Positions 3,080-12,740 of a stretch of DNA of 64,000 nucleotides are shown here, piece after piece. The first letter of the stretch is position 1. Every line of letters begins with the position of its first letter. The notes under the pieces are model-generated. The model was given only the letters and a program-made list of their open reading frames with translations. It ran no database searches and was not told the DNA's origin. The position numbers and the translations under genes are program-made. Origin of the DNA: Methanoculleus horonobensis (GTDB lineage: Archaea; Halobacteriota; Methanomicrobia; Methanomicrobiales; Methanoculleaceae); NCBI RefSeq assembly GCF_001602375.1, contig NZ_BCNY01000015.1, forward strand, positions 744,001-808,000. Direction: 5' to 3'.

Positions 3080-3754
3080 TTAATCTCCTACATCTGCAGC
3101 AGATAACTGCTTCTCTCTATAATATTTGCATTTTTCTCGTAATGGACACTCTAGATGCAATGGATTTCTTGACCTGCAGATCGCTGCTGAAAAATCAAGG
3201 ATCGCAAAGAGAAGTTTTCCCGGCTCGTCAACATCGAAGAGGGTATCTGCCAGATCCCGTACCTCCTTCTTCCTGCGGATCTCACCAGTGAGATGTAAGC
3301 CGAAAAATCTGTTTATGAATCGCGCTATATTTGCGTCCACAACACGGTGTGGTATCTTATAGCAGACTGTAAGAATTACACCGGAGACATATTCTCCCAC
3401 CCCAGGGATGGCCTGTAGCCTACTTTCGCTGTCCGGGAATATCCCCTGATAATGCTCGACAACATATTTTGCTGCTCCGATAAAGTGACCCGATCGCCAG
3501 TGCAGCCCAAGGTGCTCTGTAACTTCTCTTATATCTGAAGGATCCGCTTCCGCGAGAGAGTAGATATTGGGATACTTCTGTAGGAATTGGGTATAGACTG
3601 GAACAACCTGATCTGCCCGAGTTCTATGAAGCATGAATTCTACAATCATTATTCGGTAAGGATCCCGGGTGCGACGCCATGGATAGTCTCTGTAATGTTT
3701 TTCACCCCAACGAAAAAGAGCAGATTGTAGCACCTTCATCTCACCCGATCTCAT
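3080..3754 (-). CDS. Mig/MutY-like mismatch DNA glycosylase (HhH-GPD)
   Basis: The 224-residue protein has the full HhH-GPD fold: PWRRTRDPY and MLHRTRADQV early, the helix-hairpin-helix IPGVGEY at 116-122 and the catalytic Asp140 in VVDANI. Tyr122 occupies the position held by Lys in endonuclease III. The archaeal Mig thymine-DNA glycosylase also has Tyr there, so T:G repair is the best guess. The iron-sulfur motif reads C193-x6-H200-x2-C203-x5-C209, with His replacing the usual second Cys. It is the last gene of the defence run, 48 bp behind the AIPR gene and on the same strand as the cytosine methyltransferase. A Vsr-like role, repairing deaminated 5-methylcytosine, is therefore plausible. 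MutY-type A:G activity is the alternative. Confidence 0.8.
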   Translation of the reverse strand: MRSGEMKVLQSALFRWGEKHYRDYPWRRTRDPYRIMIVEFMLHRTRADQVVPVYTQFLQKYPNIYSLAEADPSDIREVTEHLGLHWRSGHFIGAAKYVVEHYQGIFPDSESRLQAIPGVGEYVSGVILTVCYKIPHRVVDANIARFINRFFGLHLTGEIRRKKEVRDLADTLFDVDEPGKLLFAILDFSAAICRSRNPLHLECPLREKCKYYREKQLSAADVGD

Positions 3755-3802: not shown

Positions 3803-5917
3803 CTATGACTCTACCCCGTCTTTCCGGCCACTCTCTGCCAAGACCTGCAATATCGTTTTTGCCTGCAGGACCTGTTCTTTCTTAGGTTTCATCCCTCTCC
3901 CGGACATCTTCTGCATCCTCCTGAGAAGAGCGATATCCTCGTGAGAGAAACTCTCTGTCCCGGCAGCATCCCGGATGATTTTCAGCCACTTCTGGGGAGT
4001 CAGCTTTCTGATAAATTGTTCATAATCGATAGACTCCCCCAACAGTGCCGGCCCGTGCCCGGTTGCCGCCTCATTTGCTTGATCTGTACCGGAAGTCCCT
4101 GTCTCCTCAGTCCTGCAGCGGGTCCTGGCGTCACGCGCTCTTATGGTTTCTTTGTCGACCAGCTCAGACTTTAAAGCATCCGGGAGGGAGACGTTCTCCT
4201 TCAGCAGCGATTCCCAGCACTCCTCCTTCTTGCACCACTCAGTGATGTTCTTCCCTCCGGGAGGAGTCGTGATGTGTGCCTGCACTATCCGGGACAGAGC
4301 AGTAATGGCATTTTCAAGAGCCGGCGAGAGCCTCTGCTCCTTCCAGATCCGCTCTAGGTTAATGCGCTGATCTGTGAGTTTCGACAGAAGGGCAACTGTG
4401 TAAGTGACGATATTCGCCTTGTATCCACCATATTTCAGACCGTGGACGATCTTATCCGTGCGTCTGAAAAGAATTGCCTGTGCGATCAGGAGCCGGAAGT
4501 ATTCGGCATCCGGAACAAACTCGCCCCGCTCCCTGTATTGGATAATGAAATCGCGGTAATTCTTCTCCGCACCGAGACTGACGATATGAGGCAACTGGTC
4601 CCAGGACTGTTCAAACTTTGCAAGATCTGTCTTGGTGAAACGCTGTCCGGTCGGGTTCTGCTCCCCAAATACCCTCCTCTGTTTTGGAGTGATTTTTCGT
4701 GCCTTATCATCCTGGTACTGCCCCCGGGCACGCTCATAATACCAGCGGGTTTCCAGCTGACTCCCTCTTTTCGCCGGAGCCCACATCTGACGGGATAACT
4801 TCTGAAGGGTAACATGGAAGGGATCGTTGGAGGTAAAGTCAGCGGTGTTTATTTTATTCTGGCTGTTGGCACATTCAGAGATCTTCGGAACAATATAATC
4901 GATATCCTCCGGATTTTTCAAGACGGTCAGTTTCACCTGAACGTAGACTCCTGATACATCCTTTTTGTCCTTTGTACGGGTGTGGTAGATCGATGCAGTT
5001 GTCTGCCCTCCATTCACGATCTGAAAATCCCGGATACGACGGATTCCCGGCACCCCGCTATCTGTATCCACCAGCTCGACACTTTCGGCAGTTGCAGATA
5101 TTCCGTTATTGTATGCCAGGAACATATGCGGCTGGTTGAGAACTGTATCGCGGATCCCCTTGTTGACGTTTCCTCTCATCTGCAGGTAGGCGCGGACATT
5201 TCGCTCAAGAAGTCGGGGACCAAACTTCCCATAGAGATCTGCCAGAATGTCCGCTGGCATGATGCAGAGATATGAGGTGTATACCGGGTTCTCCTCTGGC
5301 ATAGGGAGGCATAGGAGTGGTTTTCCGAAATCGCTGGCCAGATCAATCTCGATTGGTTCAAGTCGGTTCTCCGAACTTACCAGCCGATGCAGCCGCTGCA
5401 TGTCCCAGACATGGCTGGAGATCCGGTATGAGCCGCATTCCTCATCCTCGATAGCGTCGATGCCGGCAATGCCATCGGTCAGGACAAACAGCCGGACGTG
5501 GGTGAGCCTGTTCCGGAGCTGGTATATGCGGTCGGCCAGGTCAAAAGCTGGCGAGGACTCCTCCAGATTCGCGTAATCACGCCGGATTGCCCTATCAAAG
5601 AATGTTCTGAGTCGTTTCAGCTGCTGCTGGAGATCCCCTTTCGCAACGCGGACAGGTGGACATTCACCGGTATAATGCGAAACAAACAGATCAAGGTTCT
5701 CATTATCATTGAAAAAAGCATATCCGTTAACTTTGATACCTCGCGCCTGATGGGTGCAGATCTCGCGGTCATCGATCTCTCCTGCATCGGCAAGGTATTC
5801 CATCATCAGATTTGTAAACTGCTCTTCCGAAAACGCCTCGGCATCCGTATCCCGGGAACCCGCTATGATATCCTGACAAAACTTCTCTGCAAACTGATTG
5901 AGTTCTGTATCACTCAT
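3803..5917 (-). CDS. AIPR-family abortive infection protein (Mza-type defence)
   Basis: This protein of about 704 residues carries the AIPR (abortive infection phage resistance) signature. The block FQIVNGGQTTASI lies near residue 300, and the later ECANSQNKINTADFTSNDPFH lies about 60 residues downstream. Family members recur beside Z1 helicases, DUF4420 nucleases and GHKL ATPases in predicted restriction-like systems; their biochemical role is not settled. The start at 5917 is preferred over the ATG at 5932 because GGGTGCAGAA lies directly before it. The gene overlaps the end of the DUF4420 gene by 8 bp. Codon use is less GC-rich than in housekeeping genes nearby, in keeping with horizontal acquisition of the whole island. 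Confidence 0.85.
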   Translation of the reverse strand: MSDTELNQFAEKFCQDIIAGSRDTDAEAFSEEQFTNLMMEYLADAGEIDDREICTHQARGIKVNGYAFFNDNENLDLFVSHYTGECPPVRVAKGDLQQQLKRLRTFFDRAIRRDYANLEESSPAFDLADRIYQLRNRLTHVRLFVLTDGIAGIDAIEDEECGSYRISSHVWDMQRLHRLVSSENRLEPIEIDLASDFGKPLLCLPMPEENPVYTSYLCIMPADILADLYGKFGPRLLERNVRAYLQMRGNVNKGIRDTVLNQPHMFLAYNNGISATAESVELVDTDSGVPGIRRIRDFQIVNGGQTTASIYHTRTKDKKDVSGVYVQVKLTVLKNPEDIDYIVPKISECANSQNKINTADFTSNDPFHVTLQKLSRQMWAPAKRGSQLETRWYYERARGQYQDDKARKITPKQRRVFGEQNPTGQRFTKTDLAKFEQSWDQLPHIVSLGAEKNYRDFIIQYRERGEFVPDAEYFRLLIAQAILFRRTDKIVHGLKYGGYKANIVTYTVALLSKLTDQRINLERIWKEQRLSPALENAITALSRIVQAHITTPPGGKNITEWCKKEECWESLLKENVSLPDALKSELVDKETIRARDARTRCRTEETGTSGTDQANEAATGHGPALLGESIDYEQFIRKLTPQKWLKIIRDAAGTESFSHEDIALLRRMQKMSGRGMKPKKEQVLQAKTILQVLAESGRKDGVES

Positions 5918-6935
5918 TTCTGCACCCTGCAATTTTTATCCGGAATGTCTCATCATCCACGACAAAGGCAGCACAGGCAGAGAGACTCACTGAGTACTGA
6001 ACGTCCCCCACCCCGTTAACAAGAGCCCGTTCGGTTATCCGGGGGAAACCTTCTCTGATATGGAAGATCTGCCCGGTGCGGTCTGTGTAGCCCGTATCCT
6101 CGTACCTGTCCCGGTGCTCATCCAGATAGCCTGCCTGAATCAGAAGATCCTCAAAAAGTGTGGTAGTAGTGGGGTCCCCGGACAGCTCATTACGGATACC
6201 ATCAATAATCGCCGGTAGGGTCCCATCACCGTCACGCACTTCTCTGAGTGAAAGGTGATACAGGTATAACGCATCCAGACCGGTGTCATCCAGCTGCTGT
6301 TCACTTGCGATCGGCACTTTCTGATGCTGCTTGGCGATGCTGGTCTTCACCTCGATGGCAATGCCGGAGATCTGGAAGTCCTGCTGGGCTTTGCGCGGTC
6401 CGGTCCATGCTGGAACGGCCTGCCCGGCCCCGACAGCGGGTATGAGGTAATCCTGGAGGAACCTGAGCTCACCATACAGACCCCTTTGTGCAGCAGGGCT
6501 CAGCCCTTCCGGTCCGTACCGGTCGAGGAACTGCTGCCACATCTCCAGCCGCTGAAGAAGAGCCTTTAACATCGCCTTCTCCGAAGACTCGCGGGAACAG
6601 GAGGATACAACATCTTCCGTGAGTCGGGAGAAAATATCCTGATACCGGCGGTCGTTCAGAACCAGCTGGATTGTCGCATGGTGGCTCCTGTCTTCTGACA
6701 GGACGGTCTGCCGTATCTCAAAACCTTTCGAACGCGGGAGTGACCACTGGTTGATTACGCTTTCACGTCTGATCCGGATCAGGAGCATCCGGCTGTTATC
6801 CGGCACCTGCACACCAAGGAGGAAGTCAAATGCCGAATCCTGAAGTACTCGCAGCGTGAGAATATCCTCCCGGGTTGTGCCTCCGGCACGCTGCTCCAGA
6901 TCGGCCCAGATCCGATCAAAGTCCTCAGCTGCCAA
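5910..6935 (-). CDS. DUF4420 PD-(D/E)XK nuclease-like protein
   Basis: The 341-residue protein matches the DUF4420 family, which is predicted to have a PD-(D/E)XK nuclease fold. The catalytic-type residues are visible in order: Glu156 in GELRFL, Asp186 in QQDFQ, then Glu195 and Lys197 in IAIEVKTS. It overlaps the Z1 gene by 11 bp upstream and the AIPR gene downstream, so these genes are almost certainly translated together. It probably supplies the DNA-cleaving activity of the island, with the Z1 protein as motor. That assignment is inferred from family knowledge and gene order. Confidence 0.8.
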   Translation of the reverse strand: MAAEDFDRIWADLEQRAGGTTREDILTLRVLQDSAFDFLLGVQVPDNSRMLLIRIRRESVINQWSLPRSKGFEIRQTVLSEDRSHHATIQLVLNDRRYQDIFSRLTEDVVSSCSRESSEKAMLKALLQRLEMWQQFLDRYGPEGLSPAAQRGLYGELRFLQDYLIPAVGAGQAVPAWTGPRKAQQDFQISGIAIEVKTSIAKQHQKVPIASEQQLDDTGLDALYLYHLSLREVRDGDGTLPAIIDGIRNELSGDPTTTTLFEDLLIQAGYLDEHRDRYEDTGYTDRTGQIFHIREGFPRITERALVNGVGDVQYSVSLSACAAFVVDDETFRIKIAGCRNE

Positions 6936-9717
6936 ACTCCTGCTCCCAGTAGATATTATTCACCTTATACTCTATCTTTACATCCTTCGGGCTGTCAGGA
7001 ATGCTGAATGCAAGCCCCATAACCGGTACTTCGACCTTTGGTGGTTCAGGGTCAAGCGGATAAATAAGAAGCAGCCCCCGCTGGGGAGACCGGATCTTCC
7101 GGATATATGGGCCGCTCGGATCTGTCAGGTTTGTCGGGTTTGCCGGATCCCCATCTTTCTTTGGGCGAATTTTCCGGTCAGGGTCAGCCTGCATCATCTG
7201 GAGAGCTTCATGGTGTTGTTCCGGGGTAAGATCAATAAATTCATGCTTGGGATCGATAATGTGCCCCTTGGTCAGCGCGTACTTCGAATCTGATGGACTT
7301 GGATCTTTACGCTTGGTGAGGCCAATCTCATGGCCACCAAGGGACAGAGTCCGGGTTGCCGTACTATTGTGGATCAGGGCAACCGTCCAGTGCGTAAGTT
7401 CACCATGGGACGACCGTTTTTGAATGTAATCTTTCAGGAGTCCCGGATTTGCCTTTCTGCAAGCTTCATGTATAATATACTCATTCAGCATCCCAAGGAC
7501 AGCGGGGGTTGGCACATTTTCCCAGCGAAGATGCCTTTTGGTTGAATCAGAGGGGGAGGGACTGCCCAGACTTCGGATAAACTGATCGATCGCATTCAGA
7601 TTATTTCTGAGAGTAACTGGATCTCTGTGGAAGAATACCGTTTCAATAAGGGAATTACCGTAAGATACGTTCATTACCGTCCCGTTCCGCATTTTATTAG
7701 CAGCGGTGATCAGCAGCCCGTCAGGATGTGTCCGGACACGGAGGCCGTAATCGGACGGAGTGCCGTTCAGGGTTGCCATATAGTCGAATTCACTCCGCAA
7801 CTCCTCGGACGCGAGATTGATATGCTGATACCATTCGACCAGATCCCGGGATGTGTAGAGCCGGCAGAGATCGATATAGCCCGGGCGGAAACCAAACCAC
7901 CGCCCCATCTGCATCAGTGTGTCGTACATCTTTGATGCCCGGAGGTAGTAACTGACGCTGAGCCCTTCCAGCGTCAGCCCCCGGGAAAGTTTGTCCCCGC
8001 CGATTGCAATAGCGCTCAGCCCGTCAGGATACTCGTTATAATCTAGGGCATCCTTTGCCGTCCCGTTGATCAGTTTGACCTGGATCCGGGCTGCAGCATC
8101 ATACAGATATGACTGCACCTCATGCCATGTCACTTCGGTTATCAGTGGATCGCTAATCTGCTGCAGAACAGAACATGTCGTCGGAACATAGTCCGAATCC
8201 CAGAGATCCTTCATCTCCCCATAGATCCCCTCCGGGGACAGAGGATCAGTATATTCCAGCTGACGGCGCAACCGATTCAGTTCATCGTTGACCCGTCTCC
8301 CGACCTCTTTCTGAACATTAGTGTACCGGGTTACGTGGACCAGCATTGAGTTATGATTTTTCTGTTCACCGCGGGCTCTCCGGACAGCACATGAGAGGAT
8401 GAAGGATTTTAACGCCTTCTTCAGGGATTCCGGGAGCTTCCCGGGGATGTGATCCTTTCCATGATCATCGGGGATGAACTTCCGGTAGTCATCGATTTTC
8501 CTGATTATCTGAAGATCGCTCCGGCTTTCCGCATCGTTCTCCCCGTTCCGGGAGAACCCGAAGATCTGCGACGGACCGATGTAATTTGGTGGTGGCGGGA
8601 GGTTTATGATGAAATCCCGAGGAAAGAGATCTTCACCGTGGGTCGTGGTCTCCCCCTCCGGGTAGATGAAAATATTGGCAAACGGTGTCGCGGTGTAACC
8701 CACATATGCACTCTTCTCAAAATGGCTCAGGAGAGCGCGTATTTTACCATTTATCGCACTGACGTCGTAATCATCAAGCGGAAGTCCGTTTTCGTCCCGT
8801 GGAATAGTTGTTGTGTTCACCGATGCATTATCCGCTTCATCATCGATGACGAGAAGGGGAATACCGTGTACAATTTTCTTCAGGGTATGGGAGTTTTCGT
8901 GCCCTCTGATATTAACAGCCCAGTTGATAAGATTTGCAAGAACAGATTTGTTCTTCTTGACGACAAGCAGAATGGGATCACTGCCCCCGAGCATTACCCC
9001 GGCCTGGGACGCGATTTTCCGGTTGAAGTCACCCTTATCTGCACTGCTGGTCAGAGAGTGAACTGTGATGAATTCCTCTCCTGGCAGCCTTCCGACACCA
9101 ATCCGGAGATTTTGATGGTCAAAAGCACGATTCAGCTGAGTATCAAATCCGAGGAACCCTTGGTCAAGACGCAGTTGGGTCTGGCTTCGCAGACTCTTGT
9201 GCATACCGGCAAGAACAATAATAAGTCTGTATCCTGCATCGGCCGCTTTACAGATAAGCCCTGTATAATTTGCGGTCTTTCCTGACTGGACGTGCCCGAC
9301 CACCATCCCACGGCGATCCCATGCTCCCTCCCGCTGCGGTTCTTCAAGCCGCTCAAGCACCCGATCGGTGAGATCGTCGAGAGTCATGATGCTCTGCTCG
9401 GAGAATCCTTTCTCCTCCATCAGATAGCGTTCGTACCGCTTCCAGAACTTCCATTCAATCTGGCTTTTTCTGTATGGTAGCCAGACGGTGTGATTCTTCT
9501 TTTCTTCCAGTATAGTTGCCGTGCCCCGCCAGACCTCACACCGGGACTCAATATCTCTGATCAGCCGATCTCTGTCCACAGAGTCCTGTTTCCCTTCTGC
9601 ATGAAGCATCGCAAGGACAAGGTCTGCCTTCTTCTGAATGATTTCCGGGGTAGGACACGGTTCCCCTTTCAGCATAACAAGAACGAGCGAAACCGCCTCA
9701 TCATACGCATCTGCCAT
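6925..9717 (-). CDS. Z1-domain superfamily II helicase-like ATPase
   Basis: This 930-residue protein has a clear superfamily II helicase core. Walker A is GHVQSGKT at 141-148, Walker B is DDEAD at 292-296, and motif III is TATPF at 342-346. The C-terminal motifs GGDKLSRGLT (573-582) and QMGRWFGFRPGY (603-614) are typical of the Z1 domain family. Z1 proteins are fixed partners of GHKL ATPases, DUF4420 nucleases and AIPR proteins in defence loci. The start ATG shares one base with the stop of the upstream GHKL gene, which shows tight coupling. It probably moves along or remodels DNA for the associated nuclease. Confidence 0.88.
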   Translation of the reverse strand: MADAYDEAVSLVLVMLKGEPCPTPEIIQKKADLVLAMLHAEGKQDSVDRDRLIRDIESRCEVWRGTATILEEKKNHTVWLPYRKSQIEWKFWKRYERYLMEEKGFSEQSIMTLDDLTDRVLERLEEPQREGAWDRRGMVVGHVQSGKTANYTGLICKAADAGYRLIIVLAGMHKSLRSQTQLRLDQGFLGFDTQLNRAFDHQNLRIGVGRLPGEEFITVHSLTSSADKGDFNRKIASQAGVMLGGSDPILLVVKKNKSVLANLINWAVNIRGHENSHTLKKIVHGIPLLVIDDEADNASVNTTTIPRDENGLPLDDYDVSAINGKIRALLSHFEKSAYVGYTATPFANIFIYPEGETTTHGEDLFPRDFIINLPPPPNYIGPSQIFGFSRNGENDAESRSDLQIIRKIDDYRKFIPDDHGKDHIPGKLPESLKKALKSFILSCAVRRARGEQKNHNSMLVHVTRYTNVQKEVGRRVNDELNRLRRQLEYTDPLSPEGIYGEMKDLWDSDYVPTTCSVLQQISDPLITEVTWHEVQSYLYDAAARIQVKLINGTAKDALDYNEYPDGLSAIAIGGDKLSRGLTLEGLSVSYYLRASKMYDTLMQMGRWFGFRPGYIDLCRLYTSRDLVEWYQHINLASEELRSEFDYMATLNGTPSDYGLRVRTHPDGLLITAANKMRNGTVMNVSYGNSLIETVFFHRDPVTLRNNLNAIDQFIRSLGSPSPSDSTKRHLRWENVPTPAVLGMLNEYIIHEACRKANPGLLKDYIQKRSSHGELTHWTVALIHNSTATRTLSLGGHEIGLTKRKDPSPSDSKYALTKGHIIDPKHEFIDLTPEQHHEALQMMQADPDRKIRPKKDGDPANPTNLTDPSGPYIRKIRSPQRGLLLIYPLDPEPPKVEVPVMGLAFSIPDSPKDVKIEYKVNNIYWEQEFGS

Positions 9718-11222
9718 TATCTTTCCTCCAGTGATTCGAAAAATGCTGATATATACTCAGGATAATCGCAGAAGGGTTCCATCCGAGCAAGCCTTTTCTC
9801 CGCCTCGGCAGCAGGGACTCCGGAATGTCTCATGGATAACCAGATCTCATTCATTACAGCACGAAGCTCCTCTGACGGACAGCCTTCGAAGGGACGGCGA
9901 AGTTTGTCAGGATTTTCTGTATTGTTTACGATAATTGTCGGGATCGGGACAGTTTCTTCAATCAGTTTCAGCATTGCCTCGATATTTTTCCTGTTATCAG
10001 CAGAGTTGGCGAGGGTGGCGGCAACAAGGGGGTGACTGCGGTTGACAGTGTAGAAGTATGTACCCTCCCTGACATTCGTATTCCACGGAAATACAAAATC
10101 CTCAGCAGCCTGACGCTCAATCACCTTTCCCCGGTGTCGGTACACCGCCGTGGCACGTTCGATCGTCAAACGGGCAATACGTTTGAAGTCTTCGCGGAGG
10201 TGAGCAGGAGGGCGGGCAACGGATTTTCTGACATCAATCTTCCAGTCTTCGTCCATTGTATTGGGGATATCCACGATTATCCGGGCAAGTTTTGTATGCG
10301 CTTCCTTCCGGAATCCGAGGCCGAGCCAGTCCCCGGCAACAATGAGGCGGTTATTACGATAGATGTAAAATCCCTGGCGGGCGTTCCAGCCCCCTGGTCC
10401 GCCTGCGGCCTCATATATCCGGTCGCTCAACTTTGATCGGTAAGGAAGAACAAACGGGCGGACAGTGATTTTTTTTCCTGAATGATTGAGAGGTTCTTCG
10501 GGAAGGAGCTGTGTTGCGGGGTGATTCCTGAGAAACGGATCCCACGGTGAAAGCGGGTGGTTATTGATAAAGATTTTCAGAAAATTCGGGCTCTCAAGGA
10601 ATCGGTGAAATACCATGCCAAGATGACTTTTGACCGTATCAATGTACTCATAAAAGAGGTTCTCACGCCGTGAATCATCCTTCTCAGCCCCTCGGACCAG
10701 ACGATCTATCTGCTCCCATAAAACGATTGTACCACTTTTCCCGGTTTCGAGGGCCGAGAAGATACTGTTACTATCCCGTGGATCCACCTTCTTTAATCGC
10801 CACTCGCCGCACTGGTTTACATAATCGAGATCCCAGATCCGGATAGCCGGTTCGTGTCCAGCGGCTTTCGATCCGACGGAGAGCTTCCGGCACTGTGAAA
10901 ATGATGCGGTCTTCAGACCCAGTCCGAACCGGCCCAGATCGGCCGGGTCGCGGTCTTCCAACGGATTCCTGCTCCCCGGCCGCATAGCGGTAACCAGCCC
11001 GTCCTCGGCCATCCCACAGCCGTCGTCCATAATGGCAATGGTGGACTGCTCTCCATGCCATGAAAACTGAATGTGGATGTTGCGGGCACCTGCGGTAATA
11101 CTGTTATCGACGATATCAGCGATCGATGCCTCAAGGCTGTAACCGAATGACCGTAACGATTCAATCAGCGCGCCAGGATCTGGGTTTACTACATCAAATG
11201 CGTCTGATATGGTGGAATTCAT
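9717..11222 (-). CDS. GHKL ATPase, MutL/MORC-like (Mza-type defence)
   Basis: The 501-residue protein has a GHKL ATP-binding domain at its N-terminus. The N-box lies at 31-44 (EASIADIVDNSITA) with the metal-binding Asn40. The G1 box DDGCG is at 66-70 and the G2 lid GRFGLGLKT at 97-105. A second domain with FYIYRNNRLIV (around 285-295) matches the S5-like transducer of MutL/Hsp90-type ATPases. Bacterial relatives in restriction-like loci have been proposed as ancestors of eukaryotic MORC proteins. The gene sits between the methyltransferase and the Z1 helicase. It may act as an ATP-gated clamp that reports foreign DNA, which is inference. Confidence 0.85.
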   Translation of the reverse strand: MNSTISDAFDVVNPDPGALIESLRSFGYSLEASIADIVDNSITAGARNIHIQFSWHGEQSTIAIMDDGCGMAEDGLVTAMRPGSRNPLEDRDPADLGRFGLGLKTASFSQCRKLSVGSKAAGHEPAIRIWDLDYVNQCGEWRLKKVDPRDSNSIFSALETGKSGTIVLWEQIDRLVRGAEKDDSRRENLFYEYIDTVKSHLGMVFHRFLESPNFLKIFINNHPLSPWDPFLRNHPATQLLPEEPLNHSGKKITVRPFVLPYRSKLSDRIYEAAGGPGGWNARQGFYIYRNNRLIVAGDWLGLGFRKEAHTKLARIIVDIPNTMDEDWKIDVRKSVARPPAHLREDFKRIARLTIERATAVYRHRGKVIERQAAEDFVFPWNTNVREGTYFYTVNRSHPLVAATLANSADNRKNIEAMLKLIEETVPIPTIIVNNTENPDKLRRPFEGCPSEELRAVMNEIWLSMRHSGVPAAEAEKRLARMEPFCDYPEYISAFFESLEER

Positions 11223-11315: not shown

Positions 11316-12578
11316 TCAGACTTTGTCGAGCAGGATCTTGATTTCCCGTGCGATCCCCCTGGCCATCAGCGGAGGGACTGCGTTTCCAACCTGGACATAC
11401 TGTGCCGTTCTCGGGCCTTCGAAGAGATAATTGTCAGGGAATGATTGGAGGCGAGCAGCTTCTCGCACCGTAAGGGAGCGTGCCTGCCTGATGTCCGGAT
11501 GGATAAAATAGTGCCCGTCTTTAGAAAGATGAGCAACGACCGCATGGGAAAGCCCATCCCCGTCGACCACTTTGAACCGATCCCGGAACGAGGACCGGTT
11601 TTTATGCGTCTTCAGGTTCTCCGGCAGATCATCATAATGTAGACGTTTGCCTTCTTTCCACATCTGTATCGCAATTCGGTAGATCTCGCGGTCTCTATCG
11701 ATGTGTGTCCGGGCAACATGATGTCGGACAGATTTCTGACCATTGCGAATCTCGTACTTCCGAAGGTATTTACACGGACACCCGAGTTTGTAACTCTGGG
11801 GGCCATCAGTACCCGCTCCGGGTTCGAGCTCAGGAAGATCTTTCAGCACGTTCCATACGTGATACGGGGGTTCATCGCATCCAAATACCGGATACTCAAA
11901 ATCATATTCTTTCTTCCATCCTATGAAGATGATCCGCTTCCGGTTCTGCAGGACACCGAAATCCCGTGCATTCAGTATCTGCGGTTTGGCATTGGTGTAA
12001 TATCCGAGACGATCGATCCTCCGGAGGAAGTCCGAATAAATTTCACCGTTTCTGGCGCTGATGAGGCCTGGGACGTTTTCAAACACAAATATCTCCGGCT
12101 CAAATTCGTTGATGAATCGAAGGTAATGGAGATACAGGTGATTTCGCGGATCGTTCCGCATACTTTCCGGGTCCCTGCCTCTCCCAATCAGGGAGTATGC
12201 CTGACAGGGCGGGCCTCCGATGATCACATCCACATCATCACGGCCAATTTCAGCAAGTCTGCCATAGACCTTTTTTACAATTGAATCCTCGGTCACGCGC
12301 GAAAGTTCACAGTTGATGACTCCGGAATCCGGGATGTCAAGCGATTTACACTCGTCAAGAAATTCATCCCGGGTCGTCTTCTGGTTATAGTAACGATCAT
12401 AGATCTCCTGATGCCCTTTCGCGTGGAGTGCATGATATAGAGTCCGGGTTTCAAGCGTCCGGGCGGCGTGGGTGTTCATTTCGATATGCGAAACGATGTT
12501 GAAGTCATTCCGGAAGAAGCCCTCGGTGAGTCCGCCTGCGCCCGCGAACATATCCAGCACTACATACCGAGATGCCAT
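11316..12578 (-). CDS. C5-cytosine DNA methyltransferase (Dcm type)
   Basis: The roughly 420-residue protein has all main C5-methyltransferase motifs in order: motif I FAGAGGLTEGF at 10-20, the catalytic Cys125 in GGPPCQAYS, the ENV motif FENVPGL near 166-172, and the C-terminal motif VQVGNAVPP. The variable target-recognition region lies at about 230-370; its recognition sequence cannot be predicted by eye. Translation probably starts at MASRYV (12578), because motif I normally begins within a dozen residues of the start. It is the first gene of the defence run. It would mark host DNA for protection, and its product's deamination would create the T:G mismatches addressed by the glycosylase downstream. 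Confidence 0.9.
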   Translation of the reverse strand: MASRYVVLDMFAGAGGLTEGFFRNDFNIVSHIEMNTHAARTLETRTLYHALHAKGHQEIYDRYYNQKTTRDEFLDECKSLDIPDSGVINCELSRVTEDSIVKKVYGRLAEIGRDDVDVIIGGPPCQAYSLIGRGRDPESMRNDPRNHLYLHYLRFINEFEPEIFVFENVPGLISARNGEIYSDFLRRIDRLGYYTNAKPQILNARDFGVLQNRKRIIFIGWKKEYDFEYPVFGCDEPPYHVWNVLKDLPELEPGAGTDGPQSYKLGCPCKYLRKYEIRNGQKSVRHHVARTHIDRDREIYRIAIQMWKEGKRLHYDDLPENLKTHKNRSSFRDRFKVVDGDGLSHAVVAHLSKDGHYFIHPDIRQARSLTVREAARLQSFPDNYLFEGPRTAQYVQVGNAVPPLMARGIAREIKILLDKV

Positions 12579-12740
12579 TGGAACTCTCACCCTATACTCC
12601 TAACCGACCTTATGCTCCGAACCAAACTGAGATTTAGCCTGACAGGTAGTTTTGCCTGGATAAGTGATTAGAGTTTTCATTTTGCATTAAATCCCTGCCG
12701 TGCGGGGTGAAAGTAGAGATCTTGCCATAAACGGCTATAA

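Follow-up and report, generated by a model that had tools for sequence, protein, structure and literature searches.

The iron-sulfur cluster motif of DNA glycosylases is given as four cysteines in a 2024 review (PMC11138216), and a gene of Methanoculleus horonobensis raises the question of what it means when one of the four is a histidine. The gene lies in a stretch of 64,000 nucleotides, here called the window, at 3080..3754 on the minus strand. It is the last gene of a cassette and encodes a Mig-like HhH-GPD glycosylase of the thymine-DNA glycosylase type; the frame has 224 amino acids and ends in AAICRSRNPLHLECPLREKCKYY, and the C-terminus of the 224-residue protein reads CRSRNPLHLECPLREKCKYY followed by a short tail. 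The cluster motif is C193-x6-H200-x2-C203-x5-C209 (3128..3178, minus strand), with the codons TGC for C193 (3176-3178), CAT for H200 (3155..3157), TGT for C203 (3146-3148) and TGC for C209 (3128-3130). The initial annotation had described the motif in this form, at this place and with this numbering, and the translation, the codons and the alignments with PDB chains bear it out. In the phmmer alignments the motif is ungapped and H200 stands opposite the second Cys of the C-x6-C-x2-C-x5-C motif of solved MutY structures; it occupies the ligand-2 position, which is residue 199 in E. coli MutY. Since ligand 2 is a His, we class the cluster as a variant and not as canonical, which would take four Cys. 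The 17-residue cluster model PF10576 spans exactly residues 193-209 and reaches 14.8 bits, below its cut-off of 20.5; for the EndoIII of the same genome, also His-bearing, it yields 27.7 bits, above the cut-off. Motif rules that require four Cys miss genuine members. Taking all the evidence together, we consider it probable that the gene encodes a Mig-like thymine-DNA glycosylase of an MZA-type C5 methyltransferase cassette that carries a natural His-ligated [4Fe-4S] cluster.

The histidine is a conserved feature of the protein: All six other Methanomicrobiales orthologues found, which are 59-87% identical to the window protein, share the His and the three Cys, and H200 is thus invariant in seven orthologues (window included), always together with C193, C203 and C209. 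The alignment of relatives had been proposed by the initial annotation, and neither of the outcomes that it had named as speaking against the change was seen: the codon is CAT and not one for Cys, and the close relatives all keep the other three Cys. In seven other proteins, the six Methanomicrobiales orthologues and one from a Cloacimonadota MAG, the codon is CAT in six and CAC in one. Because at least two bases separate CAT from TGC or TGT, a single base miscall is ruled out. The gene is under purifying selection, with dN 0.068 and dS 0.52 to the nearest orthologue and dN 0.097 and dS 0.75 to the next (NG86). We therefore reject a sequencing error or a pseudogene, given the presence of the His in independent genomes, the two base changes that separate it from Cys, and the selection on the gene. 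A compensating residue elsewhere in the protein was also considered and rejected, since in a comparison of 9 His with 21 Cys rows only column 200 gives a perfect split; columns 1, 10, 14, 48, 88, 191 and 212 differ partially between the two groups, which may just reflect ancestry.

These orthologues come from two sets, a scan of genome_contigs with 25 loci and a class search with seven genes of at least 59% identity including the window gene; four genes are shared. The Cloacimonadota protein (L037, on a contig of 4,980 bases) has the His motif as well. It is a lone case in its phylum, in which a search at 1e-25 matched only the genome of L037 among 124, and the contig may conceivably be mis-binned. 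The other 20 loci of the scan (L038-L057) have four Cys, among them the relatives L038, L039 and L041 with about 57% identity to the window protein. A further search, over 216 genomes of the phylum, brought in two more His proteins, in G239 and, with C-x5-H spacing, in G232, besides several with four Cys. All plasmid and phage matches to the glycosylase are below 60% identical, and those inspected at ligand 2 (L058, L059 and L060) have four Cys; in viral contigs, none of 92 stretches matching the pattern is a relative of the glycosylase.

Across 46 rows of the thymine-glycosylase type, the ligand-2 column holds Cys in 32, His in 11, and Gly or Ser with a Cys two residues earlier in 3. Every row thus offers a ligand, which is what cluster binding at this position would predict, and H200 is very probably still a cluster ligand, as far as can be judged from the sequences. 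A loss of the cluster we regard as unlikely, the three Cys being invariant in the seven orthologues. A Cys displaced in this way is seen in L010, L011 and L014, which lie beside C5 methyltransferases and read C-x4-C-x4-C-x5-C. On a tree of the 46 rows built without the cluster columns, the fewest ligand-2 changes are 6 (states Cys, His and other). The seven Methanomicrobiales rows form a clade (support 99/91), and a tree with either L210 or L037 singly joined to this His clade is acceptable (p 0.53 and 0.48); the main His group may therefore have a single origin. Of the remaining His proteins, L217 groups with a four-Cys protein (support 100/99) and L191 stands apart in a part of the tree that is not resolved. 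We read the alignment and tree as pointing to three to five origins of the His in thymine glycosylases. As a separate observation, the MutY-like locus L002 of the same genome (G000:C4:97612-98181) has no Fe-S motif, nor do the MutY-like loci L218, L219, L221-L224, L226, L228 and L229; a solved clusterless MutYX exists (8uuc).

The same substitution is found in a second enzyme of this organism: The EndoIII of the window genome (L003/L061) reads CTAKNPKHEVCVVAGLC, with His at ligand 2. The two proteins are alike in having a natural C-x6-H-x2-C-x5-C motif in one and the same genome, but the EndoIII is of a different subfamily, with Lys at the catalytic position and the sequence GVGRKTAN, and its His arose separately from that of the thymine glycosylase. 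The four Cys that the initial annotation ascribed to MutY, EndoIII and Mig proteins are thus no general rule, although the solved natural proteins inspected here do have them. The change at ligand 2 that it had called unusual is real and conserved, but it is not unique to the window protein: EndoIII and further thymine-glycosylase-like proteins of the phylum show it again. A class-wide EndoIII search at 1e-35 was positive in 211 of 232 genomes. Among 90 loci inspected, 30 of them the top-scoring ones and 60 chosen from across the genera, ligand 2 is His in 33, Cys in 57 and never anything else. The His loci come from the genera g1, g3 and g4 of the window's family (32 loci) and from G011; in G045, another genus of this family, the EndoIII has Cys. 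A tree of 91 EndoIII rows requires at least 3 ligand-2 changes; 20 of its rows were chosen for their His, so that proportions on it are meaningless, and several of its deep joins were flagged as unsafe. The pattern CxAxxPxHxxCx5C occurs at 45 places in 41 of 392 genomes of the phylum, and 37 of the 42 places examined are glycosylase ORFs of several families, including EndoIII-like paralogues and two thymine-glycosylase types. One family (loci L181-L184 in G248, G239, G266 and G257) has two different EndoIII-like paralogues, both with His at ligand 2. In the bacterial phylum of G543, 9 of 296 genomes contain a match to the His pattern, and no glycosylase is encoded at any of these nine places; for the four-Cys pattern the figure is 45 of 61 genomes, counted as pattern matches only.

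Do the two enzymes change together? A His EndoIII is present in 7 of 10 genomes with a His thymine glycosylase and in 0 of 11 with a Cys thymine glycosylase. Counted by genus, the figures are 4/7 versus 0/10 (p 0.015), and by hand-made family lineages 4/7 versus 0/7 (p 0.07). This table was drawn up post hoc and excludes G541 and G258, in which no EndoIII was found, as well as G090, G089 and G001, which have the displaced Cys and an EndoIII with Cys. The co-occurrence is suggestive but weak at the level of lineages. Methanoculleus sediminis S3Fa appears to have both a His thymine glycosylase (L036) and a His EndoIII (L064, G056), and G232 has an additional EndoIII-like paralogue with four Cys (L259). 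A concerted shift of the HhH glycosylases of several Halobacteriota lineages to His-ligated [4Fe-4S] clusters is an idea that we hold to be rather improbable. If true, it would point to a cell-wide cause rather than to drift in one protein; the intracellular potential, iron-sulfur assembly, or the need for a higher-potential or pH-sensing cluster would be candidates.

His-ligated clusters are expected to have a higher, pH-dependent potential, and the His at ligand 2, which is tolerated and has evolved recurrently, would probably raise the potential of the glycosylase cluster and make it dependent on pH. The rival explanation that survives best, and to which we give only slightly less than an even chance, holds that the His is neutral: it coordinates iron at the most replaceable of the ligands, and any change in redox behaviour or DNA binding does not matter to the cell. 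This is consistent with the displacement of the very same ligand in L010, L011 and L014, with the similar methyltransferase cassettes that His and Cys forms occupy, and with the fact that the two forms are perfectly separated at column 200 alone. However, a Cys that is replaced in place has always given way to His, several times over; the His, once gained in EndoIII, was kept across a whole genus; and His forms of the two enzymes tend to co-occur, if weakly. It has long been asked whether the [4Fe-4S] cluster of DNA glycosylases serves structure only or also takes part in redox chemistry or sensing, and the natural His-ligated forms are evolved enzymes, presumably with altered potential, that can be compared with four-Cys relatives such as L038, L039 and L041.

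Much less probable is a His that does not bind at all. The three Cys would then carry either a [3Fe-4S] cluster or one of the [4Fe-4S] type whose labile iron could sense iron or oxidants. The three Cys are indeed invariant and the fourth ligand is not a Cys. Yet a free position should vary, whereas only His is found in the seven orthologues, and ligand 2 is in general only Cys, His or a displaced Cys. On the preferred reading, the C-terminal loop would hold the cluster through three Cys and one His, with H200 as ligand 2, and the cluster would keep its structural role of shaping the DNA-contacting loop. In human MUTYH, a chain of hydrogen bonds runs from the catalytic Asp236 through Asn238 and Arg241 to the cluster ligand Cys290, and a network like it is conserved in EndoIII and MIG, according to PMC12000561. 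In the window protein D140, N142, R145 and C193 have the same spacing and are invariant across 25 aligned rows; in our reading of the alignment they correspond to the MUTYH chain, by which the cluster may be tied to the active site. Since the chain ends at C193 and not at ligand 2, the His replaces a ligand that has no part in this connection. The initial annotation had thought a change of redox behaviour or DNA binding possible; with the other cluster-binding and catalytic residues intact, nothing points to a gross change of function.

Which base does the enzyme remove? The protein belongs to the HhH-GPD superfamily: PF00730 matches with 34.8 bits (cut-off 26.2), and the LQAIPGVGEY hairpin, D140 as the catalytic Asp and a matching fold are present. 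E39, Y122 and D140 share alignment columns with identical residues of Mig (L059), and at the column of Tyr122 EndoIII has Lys; the protein thus has the Tyr in place of the EndoIII Lys, the Asp and the Glu that mark Mig-type thymine-DNA glycosylases. An AlphaFold2 model of the protein chain without its cluster, built from 25 aligned sequences (mean pLDDT 93.4), has as its best VIA-align match the thymine-DNA glycosylase 1kea (Z 27.4, rmsd 1.6, 213 residues, 32% identity), with human MUTYH (3n5n, Z 27.0) as runner-up inside the tie margin of 1. Ranked by Foldseek E-value, the hits are headed by MutY chains, with 1kea in 17th place, and in phmmer against the PDB, MutY chains outscore 1kea. The predicted structure is thus only compatible with a thymine glycosylase, and because MutY chains lead in phmmer and Foldseek, we base the assignment on the active-site residues and the gene context. 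We see little chance that the protein is instead a MutY-like adenine glycosylase. The top phmmer scores in the PDB would favour it, as would the best NCBIfam match, mutY (TIGR01084), whose 153.4 bits fall short of the cut-off of 286.5; but the chain ends at residue 224 with no C-terminal 8-oxoG domain, Tyr122 is as in Mig at the site of the EndoIII Lys, 1kea is the top VIA-align match, and the gene is linked to a C5 methyltransferase. The likely job of a thymine glycosylase in this place would be to remove T from the T:G mismatches left by deaminated 5-methylcytosine.

The gene context consists of six genes on the minus strand: a C5-cytosine-specific DNA methyltransferase (11316..12590; Pfam DNA_methylase 7.6e-60, TIGR00675 dcm above its cut-off), a MzaB-like HATPase, that is a MutL-type ATPase (9717..11222; 477 bits, cut-off 850), a MzaC-like Z1-domain protein (6925..9717; 849.3 bits, cut-off 1500), a MzaD-like PD-(D/E)XK protein with DUF4420 (5910..6935; 187.4 bits, cut-off 420), a MzaE-like AIPR protein (3803..5932; 433.6 bits, cut-off 1050) and, last, the glycosylase. 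The four Mza-like genes, identified by Pfam (AIPR for MzaE) and PADLOC, overlap one another, and the glycosylase starts 48 bases past the end of MzaE. As the MzaB-E matches, all four present, fall below the NCBIfam equivalog cut-offs quoted, we call the system MZA-like rather than MZA; its gene content appears defence-like. The full cassette with the glycosylase recurs in L033, L034, L035, G084 (L199) and G239 (L261); the glycosylase is on the opposite strand of the cassette in G239, and together with the methyltransferase in G084. With the cassette of the window these make six, and in all six the glycosylase has the His; several of them are close kin. Other members of the family lie in different cassettes, again with a C5 methyltransferase: a methyltransferase match was found in the fetched stretch of 22 of the 25 genome_contigs loci, and at the three others (L045, L046 and L054) the contig reaches less than 4.4 kb upstream. 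This arrangement suits the expected repair enzyme for deaminated 5-methylcytosine, and the link between methyltransferase and glycosylase suits other roles as well. After deamination of the 5-methylcytosines that the neighbouring methyltransferase would make, the glycosylase would probably excise T (and U) paired with G, much as Vsr does, or Mig on plasmid pFV1.

Two further arrangements were seen. At L038:457-6097, and similarly in L037, L041 and L042, a recurring cassette runs from a C5 methyltransferase to a thymine glycosylase and has between them a protein of roughly 700-735 amino acids (with two HATPase matches in L038) and one of 400-550 amino acids that has no Pfam match in L037 and L038; this is perhaps another methyltransferase-linked defence system. 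On the Thermus thermophilus plasmid pTthSNM7-6d (L060:3879-5709), there is a four-Cys frame resembling a thymine glycosylase; it overlaps a DNA cytosine methyltransferase gene at that gene's end, and the table shown lists no annotated gene for it.

How does the locus compare with known systems? Like the MZA anti-phage system, the window has consecutive genes resembling MzaB, MzaC, MzaD and MzaE that follow a C5 methyltransferase gene, but it adds a thymine glycosylase as a sixth gene. The His has a counterpart in 1kqj, 'Crystal Structure of a Mutant of MutY Catalytic Domain', which we take to be the structure from the MutY paper of Messick et al. (2002) and which reads CTRSKPKHSLCPLQNGC, with the His at chain residue 199. 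This E. coli protein has the same fold (VIA-align Z 25.4) and the same C-x6-H-x2-C-x5-C motif, the His exactly at ligand 2; but its His is a laboratory change in an adenine glycosylase, whereas that of the window is natural and conserved. Going by its title, the work of Messick et al. (2002) concerns a histidinyl-coordinated [4Fe-4S] cluster of MutY (cited in PMC3584444 and PMC12000561). In the open-access papers searched we found no natural His ligand in a DNA glycosylase, and passages of PMC9266487, PMC11840932, PMC10993402 and PMC4348247 say nothing on one. The natural form is thus nature's version of a change made earlier in the laboratory: the variant is real, conserved and recurrent, its cluster type is a known one, and the gene that carries it is probably one for 5-methylcytosine repair. 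Cys3His is also a common zinc-binding set. A structural zinc knuckle in place of the iron-sulfur cluster is nonetheless the least probable reading of the site, and a very improbable one, since the spacing and fold are those of [4Fe-4S] glycosylases, the immediate relatives have four Cys, and the 2002 MutY paper, going by its title, describes a [4Fe-4S] cluster with His coordination. Another close counterpart is the thymine-DNA glycosylase Mig.MthI of the Methanothermobacter plasmid pFV1 (1kea), which resembles the window protein in its fold, its E/Y/D active-site residues and its single-domain size, and whose gene also lies near a C5-cytosine methyltransferase; Mig differs in having four Cys, CAPRKPKCEKCGMSKLC, at 32% identity, and in adjoining a separate restriction enzyme of the NgoPII family.
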